Shown here in pieces: positions 15,129 to 64,000 of a stretch of 64,000 bases of DNA. How positions within the stretch are numbered: position 1 is the first letter of the stretch; every line of letters begins with the position of its first letter. A program made the translations under genes and the position numbers. The notes beneath the pieces are model-generated. The model made no database searches, was not told where the DNA came from, and saw nothing but the letters and a program-made list of their open reading frames with translations. This DNA is from Halobacteriovorax marinus SJ (GTDB lineage: Bacteria > Bdellovibrionota > Bacteriovoracia > Bacteriovoracales > Bacteriovoracaceae), in NCBI RefSeq assembly GCF_000210915.2, contig NC_016620.1, forward strand, positions 682,001 through 746,000. The letters run 5' to 3'.

Positions 15129-15580
15129 AGGTCAAGGCGAATCTTTGTTGCATCAATAGATTGGTTATTCTTATAGAGTTCTAAGTTAATTTCCCAGTCT
15201 CCACCCATATTAAAGTAGAATTCTCTTTGAAGGTAAATGCCTTTAGAAAGTCTTTCAGTATATCCATCATCGGCAGTGCCATGTCCCATTGAAGGCATCC
15301 ACCCCCAAATATAAAACTCACTTTCATTTGGAATATCGCTAAGATTTCCATTTCTATCTTGAACAATAATCATAAAAGAGTTTTCTAAACTCGCATCAGA
15401 AAAAGGGCCTTTAATCCACTGGATGCTGAGGCTCAGCTCAGAGTTTTTAAAATTAAGTTTAGAAAGAAGGGCACTTTGATTTTGTGTACTCTGATTGCGC
15501 TCAGTCTCGTGATTTAATAGAGGTGATTTTCCACAAGAGAACAAGAGAGTAAAAGAAAGTAGTAAAAGGTACTTCATCAT
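15125..15580 (-). CDS. FixH/YtkA-like lipoprotein with a MPSMGHG motif
   Basis: The protein has 151 residues with a lipoprotein signal (LLLLSFTLLFSCGKS). The mature domain contains IYIWG-type strands and the motif WGWMPSMGHG, then a beta-rich end (GGDWEINLEL). This matches the FixH/YtkA fold. It is lipid-anchored, unlike the related soluble protein three genes on. It overlaps the redoxin stop by one base (TAATG) and the barrel gene by four, so all are co-translated. Confidence 0.75.
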   Translation of the reverse strand: MMKYLLLLSFTLLFSCGKSPLLNHETERNQSTQNQSALLSKLNFKNSELSLSIQWIKGPFSDASLENSFMIIVQDRNGNLSDIPNESEFYIWGWMPSMGHGTADDGYTERLSKGIYLQREFYFNMGGDWEINLELYKNNQSIDATKIRLDL

Positions 15581-16104
15581 TATCTCACTATGTAGCAGCC
15601 TAGGGCCTTGGCAAATTTTTGTCTGACTTCCTTGTGATTTGTTATATCTTTAAGGGCATTATCTAGGTAGAAGTTCTTTGCCCTCTTTGGGTCAATACTA
15701 TTAGTGACTCCTCCATGGTAGAGAATCTCATCACTGGCGCTCACAACAAAAACGTGTGGAGTCTTCGTCGCCTTAAATTGATCTGCAATTTCACCCTTTT
15801 CATCATAGGCAATTGGAAAGTCGAAATTTGAAAACTCCTTCTTTGCTAAATCTAAATTCTCATTGGCATTGGAGTGAACACCTATAAATTGAAAGTGAGA
15901 GTATTCTTTACTAAGTTTTTGTAAGTAGGGAATATTCTTCTTCGTACACGGACAGGATGCACTTAGAAAGAAGACAACTAGCTTTTTCTCTTTGGCCGCG
16001 AGTGATTGAAAGCTCTCGCCATTTAAGAGTTTTGCTTTAGTCAGTGCTCCATTATGGGCGTGAGTTGTTATGGAAATAAGTAGGGAAATTAGTAGTGTTT
16101 TCAT
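15580..16104 (-). CDS. exported redoxin (thioredoxin-like/AhpC-TSA fold)
   Basis: I choose the ATG at 16104 because it opens a signal peptide (MKTLLISLLISITTHAH); the longer frame adds an unlikely charged leader. The 174-residue product has the thioredoxin fold with SASCPCTKKN (Cys51, Cys53) at the active site, a cis-Pro region in ATKTPHVFVV, and a C-terminal GCYI whose Cys170 could act as resolving cysteine. Similar redoxins occur next to c-type cytochromes. It is probably a periplasmic thiol oxidoreductase. It is the first gene of the minus-strand operon that diverges from regB/regA-like genes. Confidence 0.8.
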   Translation of the reverse strand: MKTLLISLLISITTHAHNGALTKAKLLNGESFQSLAAKEKKLVVFFLSASCPCTKKNIPYLQKLSKEYSHFQFIGVHSNANENLDLAKKEFSNFDFPIAYDEKGEIADQFKATKTPHVFVVSASDEILYHGGVTNSIDPKRAKNFYLDNALKDITNHKEVRQKFAKALGCYIVR

Positions 16105-16153
16105 GTAGCTTACATATCGTTTATTGGTATTTCTGTCCACGCATCATATTGTT

Positions 16154-16173
16154 GCGGCCCTATTTACGGCCGC
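16154..16173. promoter_or_regulatory. GC-rich palindrome between redoxin and sensor kinase genes, candidate RegA box
   Basis: GCGGCC, an eight-base AT-rich spacer, then GGCCGC, in the 97-base divergent intergenic region of an otherwise AT-rich genome. RegA/PrrA-type sites are reported as GCGNC...GNCGC half sites with variable spacing, and GCGGC...GCCGC fits that form. No T tract follows, so a terminator is unlikely. Confidence 0.5.
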
Positions 16174-16201
16174 TAGAGCATTGTCTATATTAGGCGTAAG
16201 T

Positions 16202-17440
16202 ATGAAGTATAGCTTATTAAATTACAGTCAGTTACAACATAAGAGACCGTCGAAATTCTCACTCTTAGTGAATTTGCGCTGGGCCGTACTCGCATTAATG
16301 AGTATTCTTCTATGTGTTCTCATGCTTCTCTATAAAATTGATCGATACACTTTTGCCTCGCTGTGCTTGATATTAATTGGAGTGGGTGTTTTTAACTCAT
16401 ATTCTATTAGTAAGCTTCGAGTTAGTGAGGCGCTCTCAGAGTGGGATATCTTCTTTAATATTCTCTTTGATCTTTCAACCTTAACGATTTGTATCTCAAT
16501 CTGTGGAGGACTAGCTTCTCCCTTTACTTCCTTTCTTTTTATATACTTTATTCTTGGGGGAGTTCTTCTAGAGAGTAAGCAATCCGCTCTCTTCTTTCTC
16601 TTCTGTCTATTGAGTATACTCTTTCTATGGTGGGCTCCTTTGCCGAGTCTTTTAACAGATGGAGTGGAACTTAGTTCTTTAAGTTACTTTATAGGAAATA
16701 TCGTTGTCTTAGGAATTCTATGGCCTCTGCTCATTTGGATTAAGAAGTCTCTTCAAATTATGGAGCGCAATCTTTCTCAAATTTCAGAACAGCTCCATCA
16801 AGCCGATAGACTTAAGGCCTATGGTCTTCTTTCGGCAGGACTTAGTCATGAATTGGCCACGCCGCTAAATACTATTCTCTTAAAAGTAAATCGCCTTAAA
16901 AGAGATAAGTCCCTTTTGAGTGATGAGGATATCGACATTATTGATCAGGCGACTACTAAGTGTTTACGCTCTCTTGGAAGAATTCAGCAAATATCAATTG
17001 ATAGTGAAGAGGTGAGCTTTGAAGAACTTAATGCAGTTGAGGCCATTAGAAATATTATACGCTTCAAAGGATGGAATTTAAAAATTGAGACCAAGTCCAA
17101 TGAGAGCATTTTATTTCTACCAATGATTAGCTTCTCACAGATCTTCGTCGATCTTCTAGAGAATGCGATCGAAGCTTCTGGTGAGGAAGGAACTTGGGTT
17201 GAGATTATTGATGAGCGAGAAAGACTTGAAGTTAAAATTTATAATCACTCCCAATTAGACCCTCTTGTTTTGAGGCACTTTGGTGAGCCCTTTGTTACGA
17301 CTAAAGAGAAGGGGACTGGATTAGGTCTTTATAATGCGAAGATCTTCCTCGATAGTATTGGCGCTTCTCTCACTATTTCTAATGAGACCGAAGAGCTAGT
17401 TTGTACTCATATGACTTTTAAGAAAAGGACTCATGTATGA
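16202..17440 (+). CDS. RegB/PrrB-like redox sensor histidine kinase
   Basis: I use the ATG at 16202 (412 residues). Six membrane helices span about 22-185. The segment GGLASPF (102-108) closely matches the GGxxNPF quinone-binding motif of RegB. The H-box is LSHELATPLNTI (His216), and Cys254 in ATTKCLRSL lies 38 residues on, the place of the redox-active Cys of RegB. The N-box is LLENAIEAS and the G-box GTGLGLYNA. In Proteobacteria RegB responds to the quinone pool and oxygen state. It overlaps the regulator gene by four bases and diverges from a redoxin operon. Confidence 0.85.
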   Translation: MKYSLLNYSQLQHKRPSKFSLLVNLRWAVLALMSILLCVLMLLYKIDRYTFASLCLILIGVGVFNSYSISKLRVSEALSEWDIFFNILFDLSTLTICISICGGLASPFTSFLFIYFILGGVLLESKQSALFFLFCLLSILFLWWAPLPSLLTDGVELSSLSYFIGNIVVLGILWPLLIWIKKSLQIMERNLSQISEQLHQADRLKAYGLLSAGLSHELATPLNTILLKVNRLKRDKSLLSDEDIDIIDQATTKCLRSLGRIQQISIDSEEVSFEELNAVEAIRNIIRFKGWNLKIETKSNESILFLPMISFSQIFVDLLENAIEASGEEGTWVEIIDERERLEVKIYNHSQLDPLVLRHFGEPFVTTKEKGTGLGLYNAKIFLDSIGASLTISNETEELVCTHMTFKKRTHV

Positions 17441-17955
17441 GCAAAGTAATTATAGTTGATGATGATAGAAACTTCTGTGAGAGTTTGGCCTTGGAGTTTA
17501 GAGACCGCTCCCATGAGTGCCATTTCTCAACGTCTCTTAATGAGTTAAGGGATAGAGGGGATATTTCAAGCTTTGAGTGGGGAGTCATCGATCTTCGTAT
17601 TGGTACTGGAAATGGATTGGATGCTCTAGAATTTATCAAGAGCCAAAATCCTTCTATTACTCTCGTTATGCTCACAGGGTTTGGATCAATTTCAACAGCA
17701 GTTGAAGCAGTTAAGAGAGGAGCAAAGCAATACCTCGCTAAGCCAATTCAATTTGAAGAGTTACTTTCAAGTTTTGAGGATTCTAACTTTAGTACCAACG
17801 AGCAACAATACCCAAGTCTTGCGCGAAAAGAGCGAGAGTATATTGAATTTGTTCTCAATGAGTGTGGCGGTAATATAACTCTAGCCGCTAAGAAGCTAGG
17901 AATTCATCGCCAGTCTTTGCAAAGAAAACTTAAGAAGTATTCACCACTTAAATAG
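17437..17955 (+). CDS. RegA/PrrA-like response regulator with Fis-type HTH
   Basis: The protein has 172 residues. The receiver has the acidic pocket VDDD, the acceptor Asp52 in VIDLRIGTGNGLDAL, the LTGFGSISTAVEAVKRGA segment and LAKP. This segment is very close to the RegA/PrrA/ActR signature. A short linker leads to a Fis-like helix-turn-helix (NITLAAKKLGIHRQSLQRKLKKY). There is no sigma-54 AAA+ domain, as expected for RegA. It is the partner of the kinase just upstream and probably binds the palindrome in the divergent promoter. Confidence 0.88.
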   Translation: MSKVIIVDDDRNFCESLALEFRDRSHECHFSTSLNELRDRGDISSFEWGVIDLRIGTGNGLDALEFIKSQNPSITLVMLTGFGSISTAVEAVKRGAKQYLAKPIQFEELLSSFEDSNFSTNEQQYPSLARKEREYIEFVLNECGGNITLAAKKLGIHRQSLQRKLKKYSPLK

Positions 17956-18023: not shown

Positions 18024-18863
18024 TTAGAAGTCTTGAATAAAGTCTACTAGCTCTGGGTAATCGATAAATGGGTTTCTATTTTTTTGGACATCATAGACTC
18101 CATTATTTCTTGCAATCTCTGCTGCATCAACTGGATCTTCTTGGTGCCACTTTCTAAAAATTCTTTCAGTGTCTGCTTTGATTTTTCCGTTGTATCTAAT
18201 CGCGAAGTACATCATTGCTCTGGCAACATTTCCTCTATGATTAACGGCCGGTTGGAAAACTCTATTTCCACTTGAACTTACTTGAGACTCGTCACAATTT
18301 GGTGCTGGGTCTTTACCATTTCTCACTTCTCCAAAGTCGTGGTTTCCACGAGTGCTATTTGCTTTTGAATCTGTAGGAAAGAGGTGGTGAAGGTCTGATT
18401 TCTGGTGTCCTGATTGAGTACGAGTAAACTTACTCTGTGGCCAAGTGTGCTCGCAGTTAAGAACATTACTATTTGGAATACTCATTGGACCAATTGTTCC
18501 CGTATTTCTTGAGCTGGTAAATTTATTCTCACAGTAAACACCGTAGAGGTAATACTCATCATCTTTTTGTAGGTGACCCAGGGCCATATTTCCGAAGAGG
18601 TGTTTTCTAGCTGTCTTATATCCTAGGTTGATATGAGAATAACAATCTTTAGAATTAGAAGAGCAACCTAGTGTATCTGCCTTTCCATGATTCACTTGAT
18701 GTCTTGAAGTGAGGATCTTCTTTAACTCGTCCTTTAATCTTTCACCGTCAAGATCTCCTCTCTCCACTGCATCTTGAAATGATTGTGGGTAGTAAGAGTG
18801 ACCGGCAAATGTAGTTGAAGTAAAAGTGGCAAATAGGGTAGTCAAAATAAAAAGCAATTTCAC
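18024..18863 (-). CDS. secreted endonuclease I (EndA/NucM family), copy 1
   Basis: I prefer the GTG at 18863 (AAAGGA seven bases upstream) to the ATG at 18887, which has no ribosome site and adds a polar leader before the signal peptide. The 279-residue product contains the family core NCEHTWPQSKF, KSDLHHLFPTDSKANS and RGNHDFG, with the catalytic HH, and ends in RNPFIDYPELVDFI. It is an exported, metal-dependent, non-specific DNase. A close paralogue follows upstream on the same strand. Degradation of prey or environmental DNA is the likely role. Confidence 0.92.
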   Translation of the reverse strand: MKLLFILTTLFATFTSTTFAGHSYYPQSFQDAVERGDLDGERLKDELKKILTSRHQVNHGKADTLGCSSNSKDCYSHINLGYKTARKHLFGNMALGHLQKDDEYYLYGVYCENKFTSSRNTGTIGPMSIPNSNVLNCEHTWPQSKFTRTQSGHQKSDLHHLFPTDSKANSTRGNHDFGEVRNGKDPAPNCDESQVSSSGNRVFQPAVNHRGNVARAMMYFAIRYNGKIKADTERIFRKWHQEDPVDAAEIARNNGVYDVQKNRNPFIDYPELVDFIQDF

Positions 18864-18980
18864 GCTATAATCCTTTGAATTGGGCATGAAAATTTTACAC
18901 AGCTAACTTAAGGTCTGGCCAATTTTTTTTATTAGATTAGGCTTATAAAATTGTTAGGATTGTATTTTTAAATAAAAAAA

Positions 18981-19025: not shown

Positions 19026-19841
19026 TTAAAAATTTGAAATATGATCAACTAATTCAGGGTAGTCGATAAATGGGTTTCTATTTCCTTGAACGGCGTAAAT
19101 CCCATCATTTCTCTCTCTTTCTTCTGCATCTACAGGATCTTGAATATGCCACTCTTTAATTGTTTGCTCTTGCTCAGCGCTGATTGGCATTCTGTATCTT
19201 ACAGAGAAGTAGAAAAGTGCTCTTGCAACATTACCTTTGTGCTCAGTTGGTGGCTCAAAGTGACCTGGAGCTTCGGAGTGTGAAGCTTCACAGTCTCTGA
19301 TCTCTCCCCAGCTATCAACGTTACCAAATTCAAAGTTACCTCTGATGCTGTTGGCCTTTGAGTCTGTAGGGTAGAGGTGGTGAAGATCACTCTTTTGCAT
19401 TTCTTTTTCAAAGTTTCTTGAGAATTTACTCTGTGGCCAAGTGTGCTCACAGTTTACAATATTGCTATTTGGGATTCTATTTGGTCCGATATTCGTCTGA
19501 CTTGAAGTAATAACTTTACGACAGTACACGTCTTTTAAGTAGTAACCGTTTGCGCCTTCTTCTAGGTGAAGTTTACCGAAGAGAACCTTTCTTGCTCCTC
19601 TATAACCTAGAACCTTTTGCGAGTAGCAAGTTCCTTCTTTACCAGTACATCCGAGGATATCGGCTTTACCTTTTCTCTTTGTATGAACTTGAGAAAGTAC
19701 ATTAAAGAGGGCTTCTTTAAGTTGCTCTCCTTTAAGAGTTCCCTTAGTTAGTTTTGCGTTTAAATCAGAAGGGTAGTAGTTGCTTGCAGCTTGTGAGCTT
19801 AAAGAAATAGTTAAAAGAAATAGGGCTAGGATTGCTTTCAT
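19026..19841 (-). CDS. secreted endonuclease I (EndA/NucM family), copy 2
   Basis: The protein has 271 residues with signal peptide MKAILALFLLTISLSSQAA. It shares with copy 1 the core NCEHTWPQSKF, KSDLHHLYPTDSKANS and the RNPFIDYPELVDHI end. The middle differs, so this is a duplication of some age. Eight cysteines in all suggest disulfide stabilisation outside the cell. It has its own promoter and terminator, so the two nucleases can be expressed separately. Confidence 0.93.
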   Translation of the reverse strand: MKAILALFLLTISLSSQAASNYYPSDLNAKLTKGTLKGEQLKEALFNVLSQVHTKRKGKADILGCTGKEGTCYSQKVLGYRGARKVLFGKLHLEEGANGYYLKDVYCRKVITSSQTNIGPNRIPNSNIVNCEHTWPQSKFSRNFEKEMQKSDLHHLYPTDSKANSIRGNFEFGNVDSWGEIRDCEASHSEAPGHFEPPTEHKGNVARALFYFSVRYRMPISAEQEQTIKEWHIQDPVDAEERERNDGIYAVQGNRNPFIDYPELVDHISNF

Positions 19842-56878: not shown

Positions 56879-57682
56879 CTATCTAAGTTCCTTATAAAGA
56901 TTTTGGATAATTTCCAGGGAAAATGACTCCGCTCTATCAGTTCTAAGTACACCACTTTTTTCAAATGCATCTGCTAATTTCTCTGGAGAGTAGTGAGACT
57001 TTAAAACACTGCCTAATTGTTTTCTTTTAAATTGAAATAACTTTCTTAAAAAACTTTCAAATTGCTTAAATTCACTAAGAGCGATAACGGGATTCTCTCT
57101 TCGTTTAAAACTCACTACCGTAGAGTCAACCTTTGGTGGAGGTTGGAAGGCCCCTGGAGGAGCCTGGCAAAGAACACTGACATCAAAGTAAGTTTGAGAG
57201 AGCACAAGTAGTGAGCCCATAGACTTATTCTTCTTTGGATTCATAAAAGAAATCACTTTGTCAGCAACTTCTCTTTGAAACATCAGAGTCATATATTTTA
57301 TTTGAGGAGCTTTAATAAAACTAATTAAGAGGGGAACACTTACGTTATAAGGTAAGTTTGAAACGAGCCAAATATCTTTATTATTAATTTCTTTTTGCTC
57401 AAAGAAATCTTCTAAATGAATTTCAAGCGCATCACTTAATGTGATCGCTTCACTTGGAATAAATTGCTCCAAGTATTCAGGGAAGCGCTTATCTTTTTCA
57501 ATAACGAAGAAAGGAAGCTCGTGCTTGGCCAAGAATTCCGTTAAGATTCCCGGTCCTGGACCAACTTCGATGATGGCCTGAGCCTCTTCTTTAAAATCAT
57601 TGGTAATACTATCTATGACATTTTGACTTCTTAAAAAGTGTTGGCCTAAATTCTTATCGGCCCATGGAAGTGTCTTTGTCAC
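56879..57682 (-). CDS. rsmA: 16S rRNA dimethyladenosine transferase RsmA/KsgA
   Basis: The protein has 267 residues. The features are KNLGQHFLRSQNVI, motif I VGPGPGILTEFL, the catalytic NLPYNVSVPLL and the PPPKVDSTVV loop. It dimethylates two adenines of helix 45. It starts with GTG sharing one base with the tsaD stop (TAGTG). Confidence 0.96.
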   Translation of the reverse strand: MTKTLPWADKNLGQHFLRSQNVIDSITNDFKEEAQAIIEVGPGPGILTEFLAKHELPFFVIEKDKRFPEYLEQFIPSEAITLSDALEIHLEDFFEQKEINNKDIWLVSNLPYNVSVPLLISFIKAPQIKYMTLMFQREVADKVISFMNPKKNKSMGSLLVLSQTYFDVSVLCQAPPGAFQPPPKVDSTVVSFKRRENPVIALSEFKQFESFLRKLFQFKRKQLGSVLKSHYSPEKLADAFEKSGVLRTDRAESFSLEIIQNLYKELR

Positions 57683-58767
57683 TAGAGTTGTCCTTGTTTT
57701 AAAAGATCTTTCTTAGAGATGTAGCGTCCCTTAGCATCGAGAGTTAAGCACTCTGGAAAAGAGATCGCATCTTGTTCAATTCTATGGGCGTAATTGGCCA
57801 CCATTGCTCCGTTATCCGTACAAAATGCAGGTTGAACGAAGAAGACGTCTTTGTAAGTTTCAATAAGAACTTTTCTAAGATAACTATTGCAAGCAACTCC
57901 ACCACCCACGACAACTTCAAGTTTTTGCGGGTAGCGCTCATTAACTGCTTTCATGGCATATTTGAGCTTAAGCTTTAAGGCCCCAACAATGGCATGCTGA
58001 TAAGAGGCGCAGACATCTTTTAAGTCCTGCGAATATTGATCTCCACCAGGATGCTTTATATGTGGATTCTTTTCAACAAAGAGTCTAAGGGCCGTCTTAA
58101 CTCCGGAGTAACTTAGGCGACAGTCAGCTGAGCTCTTAAGGCCAATTGGAAAATTATACTTGAGAGGATCACCAAGTTTGGCCAGATCATCAATGATTTT
58201 TCCAGCAGGGTAACCAAGTCCAAGAATCTTTCCACCTTTATCAAAGGCCTCTCCTGCGGCATCGTCAATCGTTGAGCCGAGAACCTCAAAGTCTCTCTGG
58301 GACTTCACTAAGAGATAGAGAGAGTGTCCACCAGAAACGAGTAGACCAATATAAGGGTACTTCGTCGTTCTTGAGAGGTGAATGGCCTCTAAGTGAGCAA
58401 AGAGATGGTTCACAGGTATGATTGGTTTTTCAAAAATAAGTGAAAGTGTCTTGGCCGTATTGAGACCAGTGAGCAATGGACCTAAGAGTCCGGGCTGAGT
58501 CGTCACGCCAATGGCCGCAACTTGCTCCATTTTCATATTTACTGACTCGAGGGTCTGCTTTAGAAGGGGAACGAGTTTGGCGAGGTGATTACGCGCTGCA
58601 ATCTCTGGCACAACTCCGCCCCACTTACTTAAAAGATCTTCTTGAGAAAAGGACTTCTGTGTGATGACACTTGGAGGTGTATCTAAATCCTTGGAATCAG
58701 TTTCAATAATGGCAATAGATGTATCGTCACAACTGGTTTCGATACCTAAAATAAACTTTGTAGTCAT
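57682..58767 (-). CDS. tsaD: tRNA threonylcarbamoyltransferase subunit TsaD
   Basis: The protein has 361 residues. The features are GIETSCDDTSIA, the metal site HLFAHLEAIH, VSGGHSLYLL and the C-terminal NGAMVANYA. It makes t6A at position 37 of ANN-decoding tRNAs with TsaB, C and E. Coupled to rsmA, as is common. No tsaB/E is in this window. Confidence 0.97.
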   Translation of the reverse strand: MTTKFILGIETSCDDTSIAIIETDSKDLDTPPSVITQKSFSQEDLLSKWGGVVPEIAARNHLAKLVPLLKQTLESVNMKMEQVAAIGVTTQPGLLGPLLTGLNTAKTLSLIFEKPIIPVNHLFAHLEAIHLSRTTKYPYIGLLVSGGHSLYLLVKSQRDFEVLGSTIDDAAGEAFDKGGKILGLGYPAGKIIDDLAKLGDPLKYNFPIGLKSSADCRLSYSGVKTALRLFVEKNPHIKHPGGDQYSQDLKDVCASYQHAIVGALKLKLKYAMKAVNERYPQKLEVVVGGGVACNSYLRKVLIETYKDVFFVQPAFCTDNGAMVANYAHRIEQDAISFPECLTLDAKGRYISKKDLLKQGQL

Positions 58768-58826: not shown

Positions 58827-59654
58827 ATGAAAAAGCTCTTTCTTCTATTGTTTCTGGCATTTTTAACTGGATGTTCATCTCTTTTCTACTATCCTACAAA
58901 ATACTTTTACGCCGATCCAAAGAAGCATAGCGTGCACTATGAAGATGTGGACTTTCTCTCTACTGATGGAACTCAGTTACATGGCTGGTTTATGTCGGAT
59001 AAAGAGGAGAAGAAGAAAAAGGGACTTATCCTCTTCTTTCACGGCAATGCTCAAAATATAACCTCTCACTGGCTTAACTTAGGTTGGATTGTAAAGGAGG
59101 GTTATGACGTTTTCATTTTTGACTATAGAGGCTACGGACTCTCTAAGGGTCAATCAAATCAACAAGGACTAAATAAGGATTCTATCGCCGCGCTAAAGTG
59201 GGCGAGGGAGAAGTCTAAGGATTATCCTAAATTTATTGTCTACGCTCAGTCACTTGGTGGGGCAGTGAGTATGAGGGCCATGAAAGATATCGACTTTAGA
59301 GATGAGATTGATCTCTATGTACTGGACTCAACTTTTAGTTCATACCAAGATATCGCCTTTGATAAATTAAGACATGCAGGAGTTTTCGTTGTGCTTAGTC
59401 CTCTTGCTTATATTTTAGTTTCTGATGAGTATGGGCCTTATAAGAATCTTGATATTTTTAAGATGCCCATTCTTATGATTCATGGAAAGAAAGATAGAGT
59501 CGTTCCCTATAAATTTGGAGAAGAGATTTATTCTAAATTAAAAACGCCAAAGAAGTGGTGGTGGGCGATTGAAGATGGCTCCCATACTGATGTCTTTCAT
59601 CCAAAGCATTTACAGTATAGGGCCAAGTTCGTAGACTTTTTAAAAGGAATCTAA
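58827..59654 (+). CDS. lipoprotein alpha/beta hydrolase (BEM46/YfhR-like)
   Basis: The protein has 275 residues with a lipoprotein signal (LTGCSS). The motifs are the oxyanion LFFHGNAQNI, DYRGYGLSKG, the nucleophile elbow YAQSLGGAVS, the acid GKKDRVVP and the catalytic His in EDGSHTDVF. The family acts on esters or peptides; the substrate is unknown. It is convergent with the tetraheme gene, overlapping its end by four bases. Confidence 0.87.
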   Translation: MKKLFLLLFLAFLTGCSSLFYYPTKYFYADPKKHSVHYEDVDFLSTDGTQLHGWFMSDKEEKKKKGLILFFHGNAQNITSHWLNLGWIVKEGYDVFIFDYRGYGLSKGQSNQQGLNKDSIAALKWAREKSKDYPKFIVYAQSLGGAVSMRAMKDIDFRDEIDLYVLDSTFSSYQDIAFDKLRHAGVFVVLSPLAYILVSDEYGPYKNLDIFKMPILMIHGKKDRVVPYKFGEEIYSKLKTPKKWWWAIEDGSHTDVFHPKHLQYRAKFVDFLKGI

Positions 59655-61252
59655 TTCTTAGGGCAACCAACTTTCTTCATCATGTCGACGAATTTATTTT
59701 CGTTGAGCTTAGTTCCTTGGTACCACTCAGGACTTTGATCTGGATCGTGGCAATTGAGACATTTATTTCTCATATTTTCATATTTAGCTTTAGGAGACGC
59801 TTCTTCTTCACTTGTTGAGAATGGGTGCTCTAAGTGTTTGTCGTGACAGTTTAGACATTGAACATTGGCAAAGTTGTGAGTCACTCCTTTTCTCTTATCT
59901 AGCTCACGCCATTTCTTTGATAAGTTCTCAATACTCTTTGGAGGTAGCTTTCTTACAGAAGAGAAGTCTAGAAAACTCTCTTTCAACTCTTTCATATAAT
60001 TTTCTTTTAACTTAGCCAGCTTTGTTTCATCCTTCTCTTCAAAGACGACCATATCACTCGCTTTCGCAAAGCCGTGAGGAGAGTTTTGTCCGAGGCTGTG
60101 GCACTTAATACAGGCAAGATTATTTTCCTCTTTAGCCTTAATGAGAGTTAGATAAGCAATAGAGTGAGGCGTTTTTTGCCAATGATCAGCTTGTGCTTGG
60201 TGACACTCTAAACATGAATTGGCCGTATTAAATTTTTGAACTCCAAAAGAGGCAACAGTCATCGCATTTTGCTCTTCTACTTGAATCTTTGAGAGCTGCT
60301 CTTTATGTTTGGTTAAAAACTCATGGTAAGGATTAGGGGAGAGAAGCTTTGCTGTCTCATCTCTGGTTTCGTGAATATTGAAGGAGTCTTTTGACTTATC
60401 ACTCTTAAGTGCGATCTTTATTTCTCCAATATAGTGGTTTCTTGAGAGAACTTGAACCATCTTTGTCTTACCTTCTTCAACAGGAAACTTGGTAAAACTT
60501 TGTGAGTGAGAACCGATGATCCAATCAAGTTCTTTAAACTTCTTCGCGATCTGTGTATCTACATCAATTCCAGAGTTGGTCATGGCAATGAGGCGATGAA
60601 AAGGGCTATCTTTTTTATAGCCGACCTTCTTTAACTCTTCTCTGATCTTATTAATCGATAGGAATTGATTTTCAAAAGCGCCTTTAAATTTTCCAGGAAA
60701 GATACTTGGATCAGAGAGGCCTATAATAAAAATTTTATGAGGACCTTTTGTAAGGATAGTTAGCTTCTCGTGCTTAAGAGGAAAAGAGTTCGTCGCATTG
60801 GAGACGAGGTAAGTAAATTTATTCTCTTCTTGTAGCTTCTTTAAAAAGTCCCATCCCATTGCGAGATCTTGTTCACCAGGTAGTTGATAAGATAGACCTA
60901 GTTGACCGAGACCTTTGGCCAAGTTTTGTGCCGTAAATGTGAGAGACTTTTGCAACGTCTCAGGAATAGAGGAAGATGCAAAGAAAGTATCACCACTATC
61001 TATATAGAGAGTATCGCTATTTTTTTGTATGTCGTGTAGAACTCCGGCCACTTGAGGAAGACCTCCAAGAGGGTGATGCCTACATCCACAAGGGTGAGTT
61101 TCACCATTGATATTGTGACTGAAAACAATAGAGAAGCTATCCTTCTTTATTCCCGTAACATTGTATTCTCCCTCATCAATTGTATTAATGAAATTAGTGC
61201 AAGAGGCGAGGGTAAGGCATAGGATAAATTTCCAGATAGAGCTTCTCTTCAT
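59651..61252 (-). CDS. lipoprotein: UshA-like phosphoesterase domain fused to a tetraheme cytochrome c
   Basis: The protein has 533 residues with a lipoprotein signal (LTLASCTN). The first 300 residues resemble a 5'-nucleotidase/UshA metallophosphatase (FSHNINGETHPCGC, DSGDTFF, GSHSQSF), with HPCGCRHHPLGG as an unusual Cys motif. The rest has four CxxCH sites: CLECH, CIKCH, CLNCH and CLNCH (about residues 347, 382, 467, 499), as in c554-type cytochromes. It probably acts in the periplasm on the outer or inner membrane. It is the last gene of the pal operon. Confidence 0.85.
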   Translation of the reverse strand: MKRSSIWKFILCLTLASCTNFINTIDEGEYNVTGIKKDSFSIVFSHNINGETHPCGCRHHPLGGLPQVAGVLHDIQKNSDTLYIDSGDTFFASSSIPETLQKSLTFTAQNLAKGLGQLGLSYQLPGEQDLAMGWDFLKKLQEENKFTYLVSNATNSFPLKHEKLTILTKGPHKIFIIGLSDPSIFPGKFKGAFENQFLSINKIREELKKVGYKKDSPFHRLIAMTNSGIDVDTQIAKKFKELDWIIGSHSQSFTKFPVEEGKTKMVQVLSRNHYIGEIKIALKSDKSKDSFNIHETRDETAKLLSPNPYHEFLTKHKEQLSKIQVEEQNAMTVASFGVQKFNTANSCLECHQAQADHWQKTPHSIAYLTLIKAKEENNLACIKCHSLGQNSPHGFAKASDMVVFEEKDETKLAKLKENYMKELKESFLDFSSVRKLPPKSIENLSKKWRELDKRKGVTHNFANVQCLNCHDKHLEHPFSTSEEEASPKAKYENMRNKCLNCHDPDQSPEWYQGTKLNENKFVDMMKKVGCPKN

Positions 61253-61261
61253 TTTAATGTC

Positions 61262-62029
61262 CTAGAGTTTTGCTAATAATGATTTAGCTTCTTTAACTTT
61301 CTTTGATTTTGGAAATCTCTTTATAAGTTCTTCTAAAGTTTGCTTGGCCTGCTCATTCTTCTTTAGTCTTTGCAAAGTCTTAGATAAATAGAGAAGTCCA
61401 TTGGCGTTGTAGTTAGAGCTTGGAAATTCAGTGAAGAGTTTACTAAAGTAAACAGTCGCATCGTTATTATTCTTATTGATGTAAGCAGACATTCCTAAGT
61501 TGTGTAGAATTCTAGCTCTTCTTTTCCCCTTAATTTTATTTTCAGCTTCCAGACCCGACAGGAGAGATTGAGCCCTTTTGTAGTTTCCCGATGTGTATGC
61601 TCCCATTGCTTCTTGGTAAGGAGAGTTCTTCTTTTTCTTAGTTGATGATGTCTTCTTTGAAAGAGTACTAAGAAGCTTCTTTAGGTACTCATCTTGTTGC
61701 TTAAGTTGAGCTTCAATTTTAGAGATCTTCTCTTCATTGGCCTTATCTTTTTCTTCTAAGATTGTTATTTTATTTCTTAGTTCTTCGACCTGCTTTGTGA
61801 GCTCTTCCTTAGTATTGTGACCAGTCTCTTCGACTTGTCCTGTTAGTAGCCCCAATCTCTCTTCAATATTTTGAAGTCGAATATTTGCGTCGGCAGTAAG
61901 CTTTTGATTCTCAACCATTTGGATTGAGATATTATCAACAACTTGTTCTCTTTGAATTTCTTCTTGGGTTTTACATGCGCCTACAGAAAGAAGCGATGCA
62001 AGCATCAGCCATTTCATTTGATGTTTCAT
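61262..62029 (-). CDS. ybgF: YbgF/CpoB-like TPR lipoprotein of the Tol-Pal cluster
   Basis: The protein has 255 residues with a possible lipoprotein signal (LSVGACKT). Residues 35-130 form a coiled coil; the rest has TPR repeats (GAYTSGNYKRAQSLLSGL, LIKRFPKSKKVKEAKSLL), the CpoB/YbgF plan. In E. coli CpoB links murein synthesis with outer-membrane constriction. It is between the DUF4398 gene and the tetraheme gene. Confidence 0.85.
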   Translation of the reverse strand: MKHQMKWLMLASLLSVGACKTQEEIQREQVVDNISIQMVENQKLTADANIRLQNIEERLGLLTGQVEETGHNTKEELTKQVEELRNKITILEEKDKANEEKISKIEAQLKQQDEYLKKLLSTLSKKTSSTKKKKNSPYQEAMGAYTSGNYKRAQSLLSGLEAENKIKGKRRARILHNLGMSAYINKNNNDATVYFSKLFTEFPSSNYNANGLLYLSKTLQRLKKNEQAKQTLEELIKRFPKSKKVKEAKSLLAKL

Positions 62030-62057: not shown

Positions 62058-62360
62058 TTATAAATTTTCTAGGGTCTGTTTTCTAATGGCAATAAACTCT
62101 GCTCTTTCAGAAAACTTCTTAGATAGGATAGCGTATTGTTTCGCTTTATTGAAATACTTTCTCTTATACGCCGACTTAGCTTTTAAGTAATAGAATTCAG
62201 CTTTTCTAAAAATTCCGGGGGAGAGTGTCTGTGCTTTAGATTCCTTGGCGGCTAGAAATGCCACTTGGGCCAGACTCATTTCAAGCTTTGGGCGTGTGGT
62301 GGCTAAACCACACCCCCAAAATTGTATTAAAAGTAAAATTAAGACTACTTTTCTGATCAT
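62058..62360 (-). CDS. DUF4398-like small lipoprotein
   Basis: The protein has 100 residues. A lipoprotein signal (LLLIQFWGCGLA) is followed by a helical hairpin with KAEFYYLKAKSAYKRKYFNKAKQYA, as in DUF4398 proteins often seen beside OmpA/Pal genes. It overlaps the pal stop by one base. It may help anchor Pal or murein contacts; its function is unknown. Confidence 0.75.
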   Translation of the reverse strand: MIRKVVLILLLIQFWGCGLATTRPKLEMSLAQVAFLAAKESKAQTLSPGIFRKAEFYYLKAKSAYKRKYFNKAKQYAILSKKFSERAEFIAIRKQTLENL

Positions 62361-62869
62361 TATTTTGCAGTAATGATGAAATTACCTCTTCTATTTGAGG
62401 CCCATGCACTTTCATCGTGACCAAAAGCAACTGGTCTTTCTTTACCAAATGAAATTGTTGAGATTCTTGAAGAGTTAACTCCCATAGCAACTAGGTGGTC
62501 TTTTACAGCAACAGCTCTTCTCTCACCAAGTGCAAGGTTATACTGTACTCCACCTCTCTCATCACAGTGACCTTCAACTTGAATTTCAACAGATGGGTTA
62601 GCTTTTAAGAATTCAGCATTTGCATTTAATGTTTCACGTGCAGATGTTGAAAGAACAGATGAGTTGAAACCAAAGAATACAGTTTTGATTGGTCCAGCTT
62701 TACCTGAGTCAGAGTCAGCATTTAACTCAAGAGCAGAGGCGTCAGCACCAACTGATTCCATAGTTTGGTTGTCGTTTACTTCTTTTTTCTTAGTCGAACT
62801 ACAGCTCGCTAATGAAAGTGAAAGTGTTAATACAGCGAGTAAAGTCATTGGCTTGAAAGTAAATTTCAT
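62360..62869 (-). CDS. pal: peptidoglycan-associated lipoprotein Pal
   Basis: The protein has 169 residues. A lipoprotein signal (LSLSLASCSS) precedes an OmpA-like domain with EIQVEGHCDERGGVQYNLALGERRA, the diaminopimelate-binding region, and a terminal SNRRGNFIITAK. It binds murein and, with TolB, keeps the outer membrane attached. A strong AGGAG ribosome site and TATAAT box precede it. The downstream DUF4398, ybgF and tetraheme genes form its operon. Confidence 0.95.
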   Translation of the reverse strand: MKFTFKPMTLLAVLTLSLSLASCSSTKKKEVNDNQTMESVGADASALELNADSDSGKAGPIKTVFFGFNSSVLSTSARETLNANAEFLKANPSVEIQVEGHCDERGGVQYNLALGERRAVAVKDHLVAMGVNSSRISTISFGKERPVAFGHDESAWASNRRGNFIITAK

Positions 62870-62962: not shown

Positions 62963-64000
62963 ATGAAAAATCATATTGGCCGAGCTTTGTTGTCGGTTAT
63001 TTTCTTTTTGTTCTCAACTCATCTTGTTAACGCCAGAATGGGAGGTAGTGTTGAAACCTCCCATCTAGAAGTGGACACGGCCTATGGCCCTTATCGCTTC
63101 GAAATTCATCTTCCAGATTACGAAGAGAATTTTAGAAATCGCGTACTCTCTATACTAGAGAAAAATACTGCTAAACTTGCCGACTATTTTAAATACGCCC
63201 CAAGTGCATTGATCCATATCACTTTAAAAGAAGGCGTCCAAGAGGCCAATGGAAGTGCAACAGTATTTCCATTTAATCATATTGTTCTTCGAAAATTTCC
63301 TCCTCTTGGAAGAGATCACTTAATCTCAAGTCCAAACTCTCTTGGACAGTTAATAATTCATGAACTCGTTCATATTATCCACATGGATCAAACGAGAGGA
63401 GTGTTGAAATTGTCCAAGGGAATCTTTGGAACTTTTGGAAAGTGGGGAGGTATAGCACCTAGGTGGTTCATAGAGGGAATAGCGACTTGGGCCGAGAGTG
63501 CGCTCACAGATTCGGGAAGACTTAGAAGTGAGCTCTTAAAAGTTGAGTGGGAACAGGCCTTTAAAGATGCGAACTTTTGCCAGACAATTGATTGTCTAGA
63601 CGATCCGGGAACTCCTCCTTATGGACAATATGCTTATTGGACGGGAGCGTTCTTTATGGAGTTTTTAGAGAGTAAGTCTAAGAACTCAGTACAGTGTTTA
63701 ATTTTTGCCAATAGTAATAATATTCCATTCTTTTTAAATAGCGCCTTTAAAGAGTGTTTTAATAAGAGTGCTGGGCAATTATATGATGAGTTTAGAGAGG
63801 ACTTTTTAAAGAAGTATAGGCAGCGTGAAATAGACGAGAAAGAATTTGTAAAAATAAAATATTTCTTCTCTAGAAAATCACTTCAAGAAGGTTTTGCTCT
63901 TGTTGATAATAAGCTTCTTAGTGTTGAGTTTAAAAATGATGTGAAAGTACTCTTAGAGCAACCTCTCGACTCTTCTAAAGTGAAAGAGATAAAGTTATCA
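62963..64000 (+). CDS. exported zinc metalloprotease (peptidase MA-like), 3' end outside the window
   Basis: An open frame of 346 codons begins at ATG 62963 and runs off the window. The signal peptide is MKNHIGRALLSVIFFLFSTHLVNA. The zinc site is HELVHIIHM (HExxH), followed by WFIEGIATWAES with the third ligand Glu, the gluzincin pattern of peptidase MA-like proteins. The C-terminal part is cut off; related proteins often end in a beta-propeller. It is divergent from pal. Substrate unknown. Confidence 0.85.
   Translation, partial: MKNHIGRALLSVIFFLFSTHLVNARMGGSVETSHLEVDTAYGPYRFEIHLPDYEENFRNRVLSILEKNTAKLADYFKYAPSALIHITLKEGVQEANGSATVFPFNHIVLRKFPPLGRDHLISSPNSLGQLIIHELVHIIHMDQTRGVLKLSKGIFGTFGKWGGIAPRWFIEGIATWAESALTDSGRLRSELLKVEWEQAFKDANFCQTIDCLDDPGTPPYGQYAYWTGAFFMEFLESKSKNSVQCLIFANSNNIPFFLNSAFKECFNKSAGQLYDEFREDFLKKYRQREIDEKEFVKIKYFFSRKSLQEGFALVDNKLLSVEFKNDVKVLLEQPLDSSKVKEIKLS

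Follow-up and report, generated by a model that had tools for sequence, protein, structure and literature searches.

A tetraheme UshA-like lipoprotein with a Cys/Sec motif encoded in the pal cluster of Halobacteriovorax marinus

What does a lipoprotein that joins a phosphoesterase-like fold to four heme sites do at the end of a pal gene cluster? The gene that raises this question is an open reading frame on the minus strand (59651..61252, 533 aa) in a 64,000-nucleotide stretch of Halobacteriovorax marinus SJ (contig NC_016620.1; genome of 3.44 Mb in two contigs), called the window here. Reading of the ORF confirmed the lipoprotein with HPCGC and four CxxCH sites described in an initial annotation and placed it as the last gene of a pal-DUF4398-ybgF series, and its designation as an UshA-like/tetraheme lipoprotein gene (hereafter the heme lipoprotein gene) also draws on profile matches and a 77-row alignment.

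Residue counts below refer to that alignment, of 77 non-redundant full-length relatives, and all features of the gene lie, like the gene itself, on the minus strand. The signal peptide comes with a lipobox cysteine that would serve as the lipoprotein anchor (Cys18, 61199..61201) and is present in 70 of the 77 rows. An N-terminal domain of the UshA/CD73/SoxB fold (fold Z about 27) occupies residues 36–303 (60344..61147), the span of a match to the NF041198 profile, and a C-terminal cytochrome-c554-like tetraheme domain occupies approximately residues 340–506 (59735..60235). Besides Cys18, one further signal-peptide cysteine and the heme cysteines, the protein contains only Cys55, Cys57 and Cys530, all three of which are conserved. 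The first two belong to PCGC (residues 54–57, 61082..61093), which closes the longer string GETHPCGC (residues 50–57); Cys530 (59663..59665) is a C-terminal non-heme cysteine and a candidate resolving thiol. An AlphaFold2 model built with 27 sequences had a mean pLDDT of 85.1 and a pTM of 0.81.

Structure comparison aligned the N-terminal half with CD73, UshA and SoxB at Z about 26–27 over ~270 residues. The term metallophosphatase-like, as used in the initial annotation, is therefore apt for the fold, but finds no counterpart in Pfam Metallophos (PF00149), which did not match the window protein at E<=1. Neither did PF02872 (5_nucleotid_C); a canonical paralogue (L067) carries both. An alignment with two canonical UshA-type paralogues from the same genome showed N/S and various other residues in place of the Asp and His of their NDLH motif, and G[DE]xD where they have GNHD. 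Taking the metal-ligand and catalytic roles of the aligned residues to be those of UshA, we read from the sequences a loss of the catalytic His and of both first-metal residues, Asp and His. Other positions are kept (Glu51 in 77 rows, Asp88 in 76, Asp/Glu127 in 76 and His249 in 77), His226 is found in 67 of 77 with Asn in 8 rows that include the window protein, and Gln251 varies (60/77). The GE-x-x-PCG[C/U] loop is near-invariant and comes after strand 1, at the former position of the lost ligands, and the tetraheme domain replaces the C-domain with which genuine UshA proteins bind nucleotides.

Within the C-terminal half, PF13435 scored 31.8 bits against a gathering threshold of 20.8. A profile of the heme domain matched 1bvb (E 2.3e-10); both heme pairs align, though the second does so weakly. 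A structure search returned 1ft6 as its top entry (Z 7.3, rmsd 4.3, 133 aligned), the next row having Z 3.1. A Foldseek search of the heme domain alone against the PDB gave no significant match (best E 4.7). Heme site 1 (CLECH, residues 347–351, 60200..60214) is kept in 75 of 77 sequences, and sites 2 (CIKCH, 381–385, 60098..60112), 3 (CLNCH, 466–470, 59843..59857) and 4 (CLNCH, 498–502, 59747..59761) are kept in 77 of 77. Two relatives on one branch, L046 (genome G017) and L123, have lost heme site 1 (SYLESH in L046) and keep the other three together with PCGC. A further copy, in genome G032 (L060:7338-8657, 440 aa), has SCNC for PCGC and three CxxCH sites, and is either degenerating or re-purposed. 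The loss of heme 1 in the first two and the altered third copy indicate that some parts of the protein are dispensable.

In the PCG[C/U] motif, Cys55 and position 57 are each conserved in 77 of 77 sequences; Cys530 is conserved in 75. Relatives in five genomes (L062 and its duplicate L172, L064, L168, L171 and L173) were found by direct reading to have an in-frame UGA at position 57, so the search for the same fusion with Sec at the Cys site, proposed with the initial annotation, was positive. From matching contig numbers and coordinates, we infer that L168, L171 and L173 correspond to genomes G307, G303 and G304. Sec machinery was examined in 16 genomes. Six contained an in-frame TGA copy (G039, G054, G303–G305 and G307), that of G305 not being placed at the Cys site by reading; all six had tRNA-Sec above the gathering score (56–76 bits), and five had SelB above its cut-off, G304 having only a contig-end piece of 167.6 bits. 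In G299, which also has an in-frame TGA, tRNA-Sec was marginal (47.5 against a cut-off of 47), and in the nine genomes for which no TGA copy was reported neither tRNA-Sec nor SelB reached its cut-off. The window protein has only Cys at this site, and the window genome contained no tRNA-Sec or SelB over the cut-off.

Sec loci have a hairpin 3' of the UGA, with a GGTC loop in several, and its SECIS folding energies are mixed (z -2.49 in L064; z -1.03 in L062, for a stretch starting 18 bases past the UGA). The four Sec rows included in a tree all fell within one well-supported set of seven, and three Sec/Cys changes are needed. Where Sec and Cys substitute for one another at a fixed position, the residue is usually a catalytic redox one. 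Since Sec replaces the second Cys in relatives that have tRNA-Sec, a redox site is much likelier here than a phosphatase, in keeping with the earlier suggestion that HPCGC is a redox site.

The heme lipoprotein gene closes a run of four genes in the same direction, preceded on the minus strand by pal (peptidoglycan-associated lipoprotein, 62360..62869), a DUF4398-like lipoprotein gene (62058..62360) and a gene for a YbgF/CpoB-like TPR lipoprotein (61262..62029). Spacing within the cluster ranges from a 1-bp overlap to 28 bp, with 9 bp between the ybgF-like and heme lipoprotein genes, and each of the four proteins begins with a lipobox-like signal peptide, as read by eye. The names originally given to the three upstream genes fared unevenly: Pal exceeded its cut-off (TIGR02802, Pal_lipo, 133.1 against 125.35), but the DUF4398-like protein scored just under gathering (27.0 against 27.9 bits) and the YbgF-like protein well below its cut-off (TIGR02795, 53.4 against 90.1 bits), synteny providing further grounds for both. 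Four promoter-like sites were found on the minus strand (62085, 62092, 61188 and 59643), the overall number of such sites not exceeding that in shuffled sequence.

On the downstream side, an alpha/beta-hydrolase lipoprotein gene of opposite sense (58827-59654) converges on the heme lipoprotein gene with a 4-bp overlap; among the 74 loci with room downstream, 27 have a next gene that runs in the opposite sense. Beyond it, again on the minus strand, lie what we take to be tsaD (57682..58767) and ksgA (rsmA, 56879..57682), names given from sequence for genes that synteny marks as the conserved downstream neighbour of the cluster and the next conserved neighbour after it. Divergent from pal is a gene that encodes an HELVH motif and is unmatched in Pfam (62963-64000; 903 aa in L037:8964-11675), which adjoins pal in many loci, including those of relatives without the heme lipoprotein gene. 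Reading by eye elsewhere in the window showed two adjoining paralogous genes for secreted endonuclease-I-like proteins (18024-18887 and 19026-19841), and, at 15580-17955, a thiol-redoxin-like gene that diverges from genes for a RegB/RegA-like pair of sensor kinase and response regulator.

Within the window's family, 25 of the 37 genomes surveyed had a match at E < 1e-30; the G018 match is truncated by a contig end and the G032 match is degenerate. The best 80 of 194 relatives in a named scan yielded 78 loci; among these best 80, the closest by name and genus was Halobacteriovorax marinus 36_234_T64 (68% identity). Once duplicates between the family set and the named scan were removed, 88 loci were left. 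In non-redundant loci with upstream room, pal lay upstream on the same strand in 73 of 75, DUF4398 in 70 and ybgF in 65; two of the ten loci missing ybgF (L163 and L166) were seen by eye to have a lipoprotein gene in its slot, too diverged for tblastn. Of the 74 loci with downstream room, 65 have tsaD within 12 kb and 52 have it directly next. These counts are not circular, since loci were collected by protein similarity and not by their neighbours. A lack of conservation of the operon and of the heme sites, named at the outset as grounds against the proposal, was thus not found, pal being upstream in nearly all loci and the heme cysteines retained in 75 to 77 of 77 sequences. The same gene order, partial in some cases, recurs in other families of the phylum at 24–27% identity (L062–L065). 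Together, the lipoprotein architecture and its placement beside pal are ancient and conserved, and no chance fusion.

Presence of the gene is nevertheless patchy. We picked 20 genomes without it or with weak matches only, 12 from the window's family and 8 from elsewhere, the latter including what is presumably Bdellovibrio bacteriovorus. In all 20, pal, tsaD and ksgA remain clustered in the absence of the heme lipoprotein gene, and most also have DUF4398 and/or ybgF; three of them (L200, L206 and L207) have a gap of 1.3–3.3 kb between ybgF and tsaD, the content of which is unread. Since pal and tsaD-ksgA are still together in genomes without the gene, it fills a slot between ybgF and tsaD. The gene is therefore an accessory part with a fixed slot, it has probably been lost more than once, and its position probably leads to co-expression with the Pal lipoproteins. 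Across the phylum, 216 of 368 genomes had matches, but canonical nucleotidase paralogues are among them, so this figure does not measure how many genomes carry the heme lipoprotein gene.

Other accounts of its distribution were tried and rejected. Plasmid carriage was dismissed because no record among 260 plasmid matches reached 80% query coverage and, of the 15 listed, those with an annotation were nucleotidases; viral contigs gave no match to the heme lipoprotein. Cytochrome-c maturation as the cause of the patchy presence was set aside as well: PF01578 occurred in 113 of 125 family genomes and is not discriminating, since many genomes with it have no heme lipoprotein gene. Two homologues were found outside the pal locus (L169:7944-10660 and L170:7926-10578), in each case immediately ahead of a muropeptide permease gene of the AmpG family (TIGR00901, above cut-off) that is followed by an SCO1/SenC gene, with a peptidyl-prolyl isomerase gene before the homologue on the other strand.

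The fusion claimed in the initial annotation is well founded, since NF041198 (UshA_like_PCGU, "UshA-like (seleno)protein") spans both halves, as does the 77-sequence alignment. The window protein scores 207.4 bits, below the NF041198 cut-off of 275, in three stretches, and each half alone also matches (heme half, model 403–456, E 3.9e-20). Relatives in the same slot exceed the cut-off (L062, 288; L063, 313.3; L064, 373.2), and L065, a Cys protein in the same type of locus, reaches 518.5 bits over model positions 1–518 of 519. Given this end-to-end match and the match of the heme half, the UshA-plus-heme architecture was already known, and the fusion is not new. Scanned members of the window's family score 169–214 bits, and their sequences suggest a divergent branch of NF041198 in which only Cys is seen among the scanned copies.

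This family has appeared in lists of selenoproteins, as a CxU member, since 2008 (PMC2398784; see also PMC9312934 and PMC13188914); the accessible portions of these papers give it no function and make no mention of hemes in an UshA-like selenoprotein. The literature searched contained no report of Pal-locus placement of an UshA-like (seleno)protein. What our analysis adds is the Pal-locus address, the occurrence there of the Sec form too, and the loss of the metal site combined with assignment of the heme domain to the c554 type. A selenoprotein family lacking a function thereby gains an anatomy: a C-x-C/U pair where a retired phosphatase had its site, a c554-type tetraheme domain and a deeply conserved address beside pal.

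We propose, with a probability of roughly 0.5, that a retired phosphoesterase has here become a lipid-anchored oxidoreductase of the periplasm. Cys55 and Cys57 (or Sec57), perhaps with Cys530, would form a thiol/selenol redox centre, the pair presumably lying at the vacated first-metal side next to a leftover single-metal site. The four hemes, if loaded, may shuttle electrons between this centre and a periplasmic donor or acceptor, in either direction, and turnover would take place beside the outer membrane, conceivably on a small substrate such as a peroxide or an oxidised compound of sulfur or selenium, or else on a protein disulfide. One point against an oxidoreductase is that Asp88, Asp/Glu127, His226 and His249 could hold a metal doing hydrolysis. 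A working phosphoesterase or nucleotidase with an attached heme domain would also account for the close fit to CD73/UshA and the retention of Asp88, Asp/Glu127 and His249. Such an enzyme is very improbable, however, given the apparent loss of the first-metal Asp/His and the catalytic His, a Gln251 that varies, and the absence of PF00149 (at E<=1) and PF02872 matches. The lost ligands and missing C-domain led us to reject phosphatase or nucleotidase activity as far as sequence can indicate, and "phosphoesterase", as an activity, is not supported in the initial annotation.

The metal remnant and the Cys/Sec pair might instead handle a thiosulfonate or persulfide in a SoxB-like sulfur enzyme, the tetraheme domain taking the released electrons. 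After NF041198, no named enzyme family scores better than SoxB (TIGR04486, E 7.4e-12 with the window protein and 2.2e-32 with the Sec copy L064), which is also a close structural match (Z 26.8). Yet the 44.3 bits of the window protein are far under the cut-off of 550, CD73 and UshA fit the fold equally well, and no sox genes were noticed adjoining in the loci read, so that we consider this an unlikely reading. It is doubtful, too, that the CxC and Cys530 bind a metal such as copper in an electron relay, with the hemes active as a reductase or electron buffer. Metal binding is common among CxC motifs and an SCO1/SenC gene lies two genes away in L169 and L170, but five genomes have Sec in place of the second Cys, a substitution characteristic of catalytic redox sites and not of structural metal sites. 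Finally, the heme state could set the Cys pair as a redox sensor or switch of the envelope machinery, regulating Pal, DUF4398 or CpoB, an idea consistent with the pal-DUF4398-ybgF-heme gene order of most loci and with the envelope setting that recurs at the AmpG-family neighbours of L169 and L170. Its support is neighbourhood only; tsaD and ksgA, which are not envelope genes, are equally near, and the 20 genomes with pal but without the heme lipoprotein gene indicate that Pal does not need it. We consequently hold the switch improbable.

For the oxidoreductase that we favour, a role in Tol-Pal function has gene order as its only basis and is unproved. It is a long shot that this Pal-locus tetraheme thiol/selenol enzyme of the Bdellovibrionota couples periplasmic electron flow to outer-membrane/peptidoglycan maintenance, with a heme-set Cys/Sec pair modifying or repairing a component of the Pal-CpoB lipoproteins; if true, such coupling would constitute a redox-wired branch of Tol-Pal biology. 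Any real envelope link would represent a new connection, from electron transfer to outer-membrane upkeep. Since Halobacteriovorax uses the Cys form, function can be tested in this genus without selenium chemistry.

Among known systems, NF041198 has in common with the window protein both the PCG[C/U] motif and an UshA-like domain followed by a heme region. The UshA/CD73 5'-nucleotidases share the fold of the N-terminal domain, but their metal and catalytic residues and 5_nucleotid_C domain are absent from the window protein. SoxB thiosulfohydrolase likewise shares this fold (2wdf) and differs in the TIGR04486 shortfall given above and in the tetraheme domain and CxC/CxU found here. MccSep (PDB 9wt8 and 9wt9) combines hemes and Sec in one protein; its similarity is weak and limited to the heme-1 stretch (E 0.0009), for which reason we rejected it as a homologue, and a literature search under that name returned nothing relevant. 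ExtKL (NF040886) is a multiheme cytochrome selenoprotein, listed for L063 only at 29.4 bits, and with MccSep it provides precedent for the pairing of heme and Sec in a single protein. The tetraheme domain, here fused to an UshA fold and lipid-anchored, resembles cytochrome c554 of Nitrosomonas (1bvb/1ft6).
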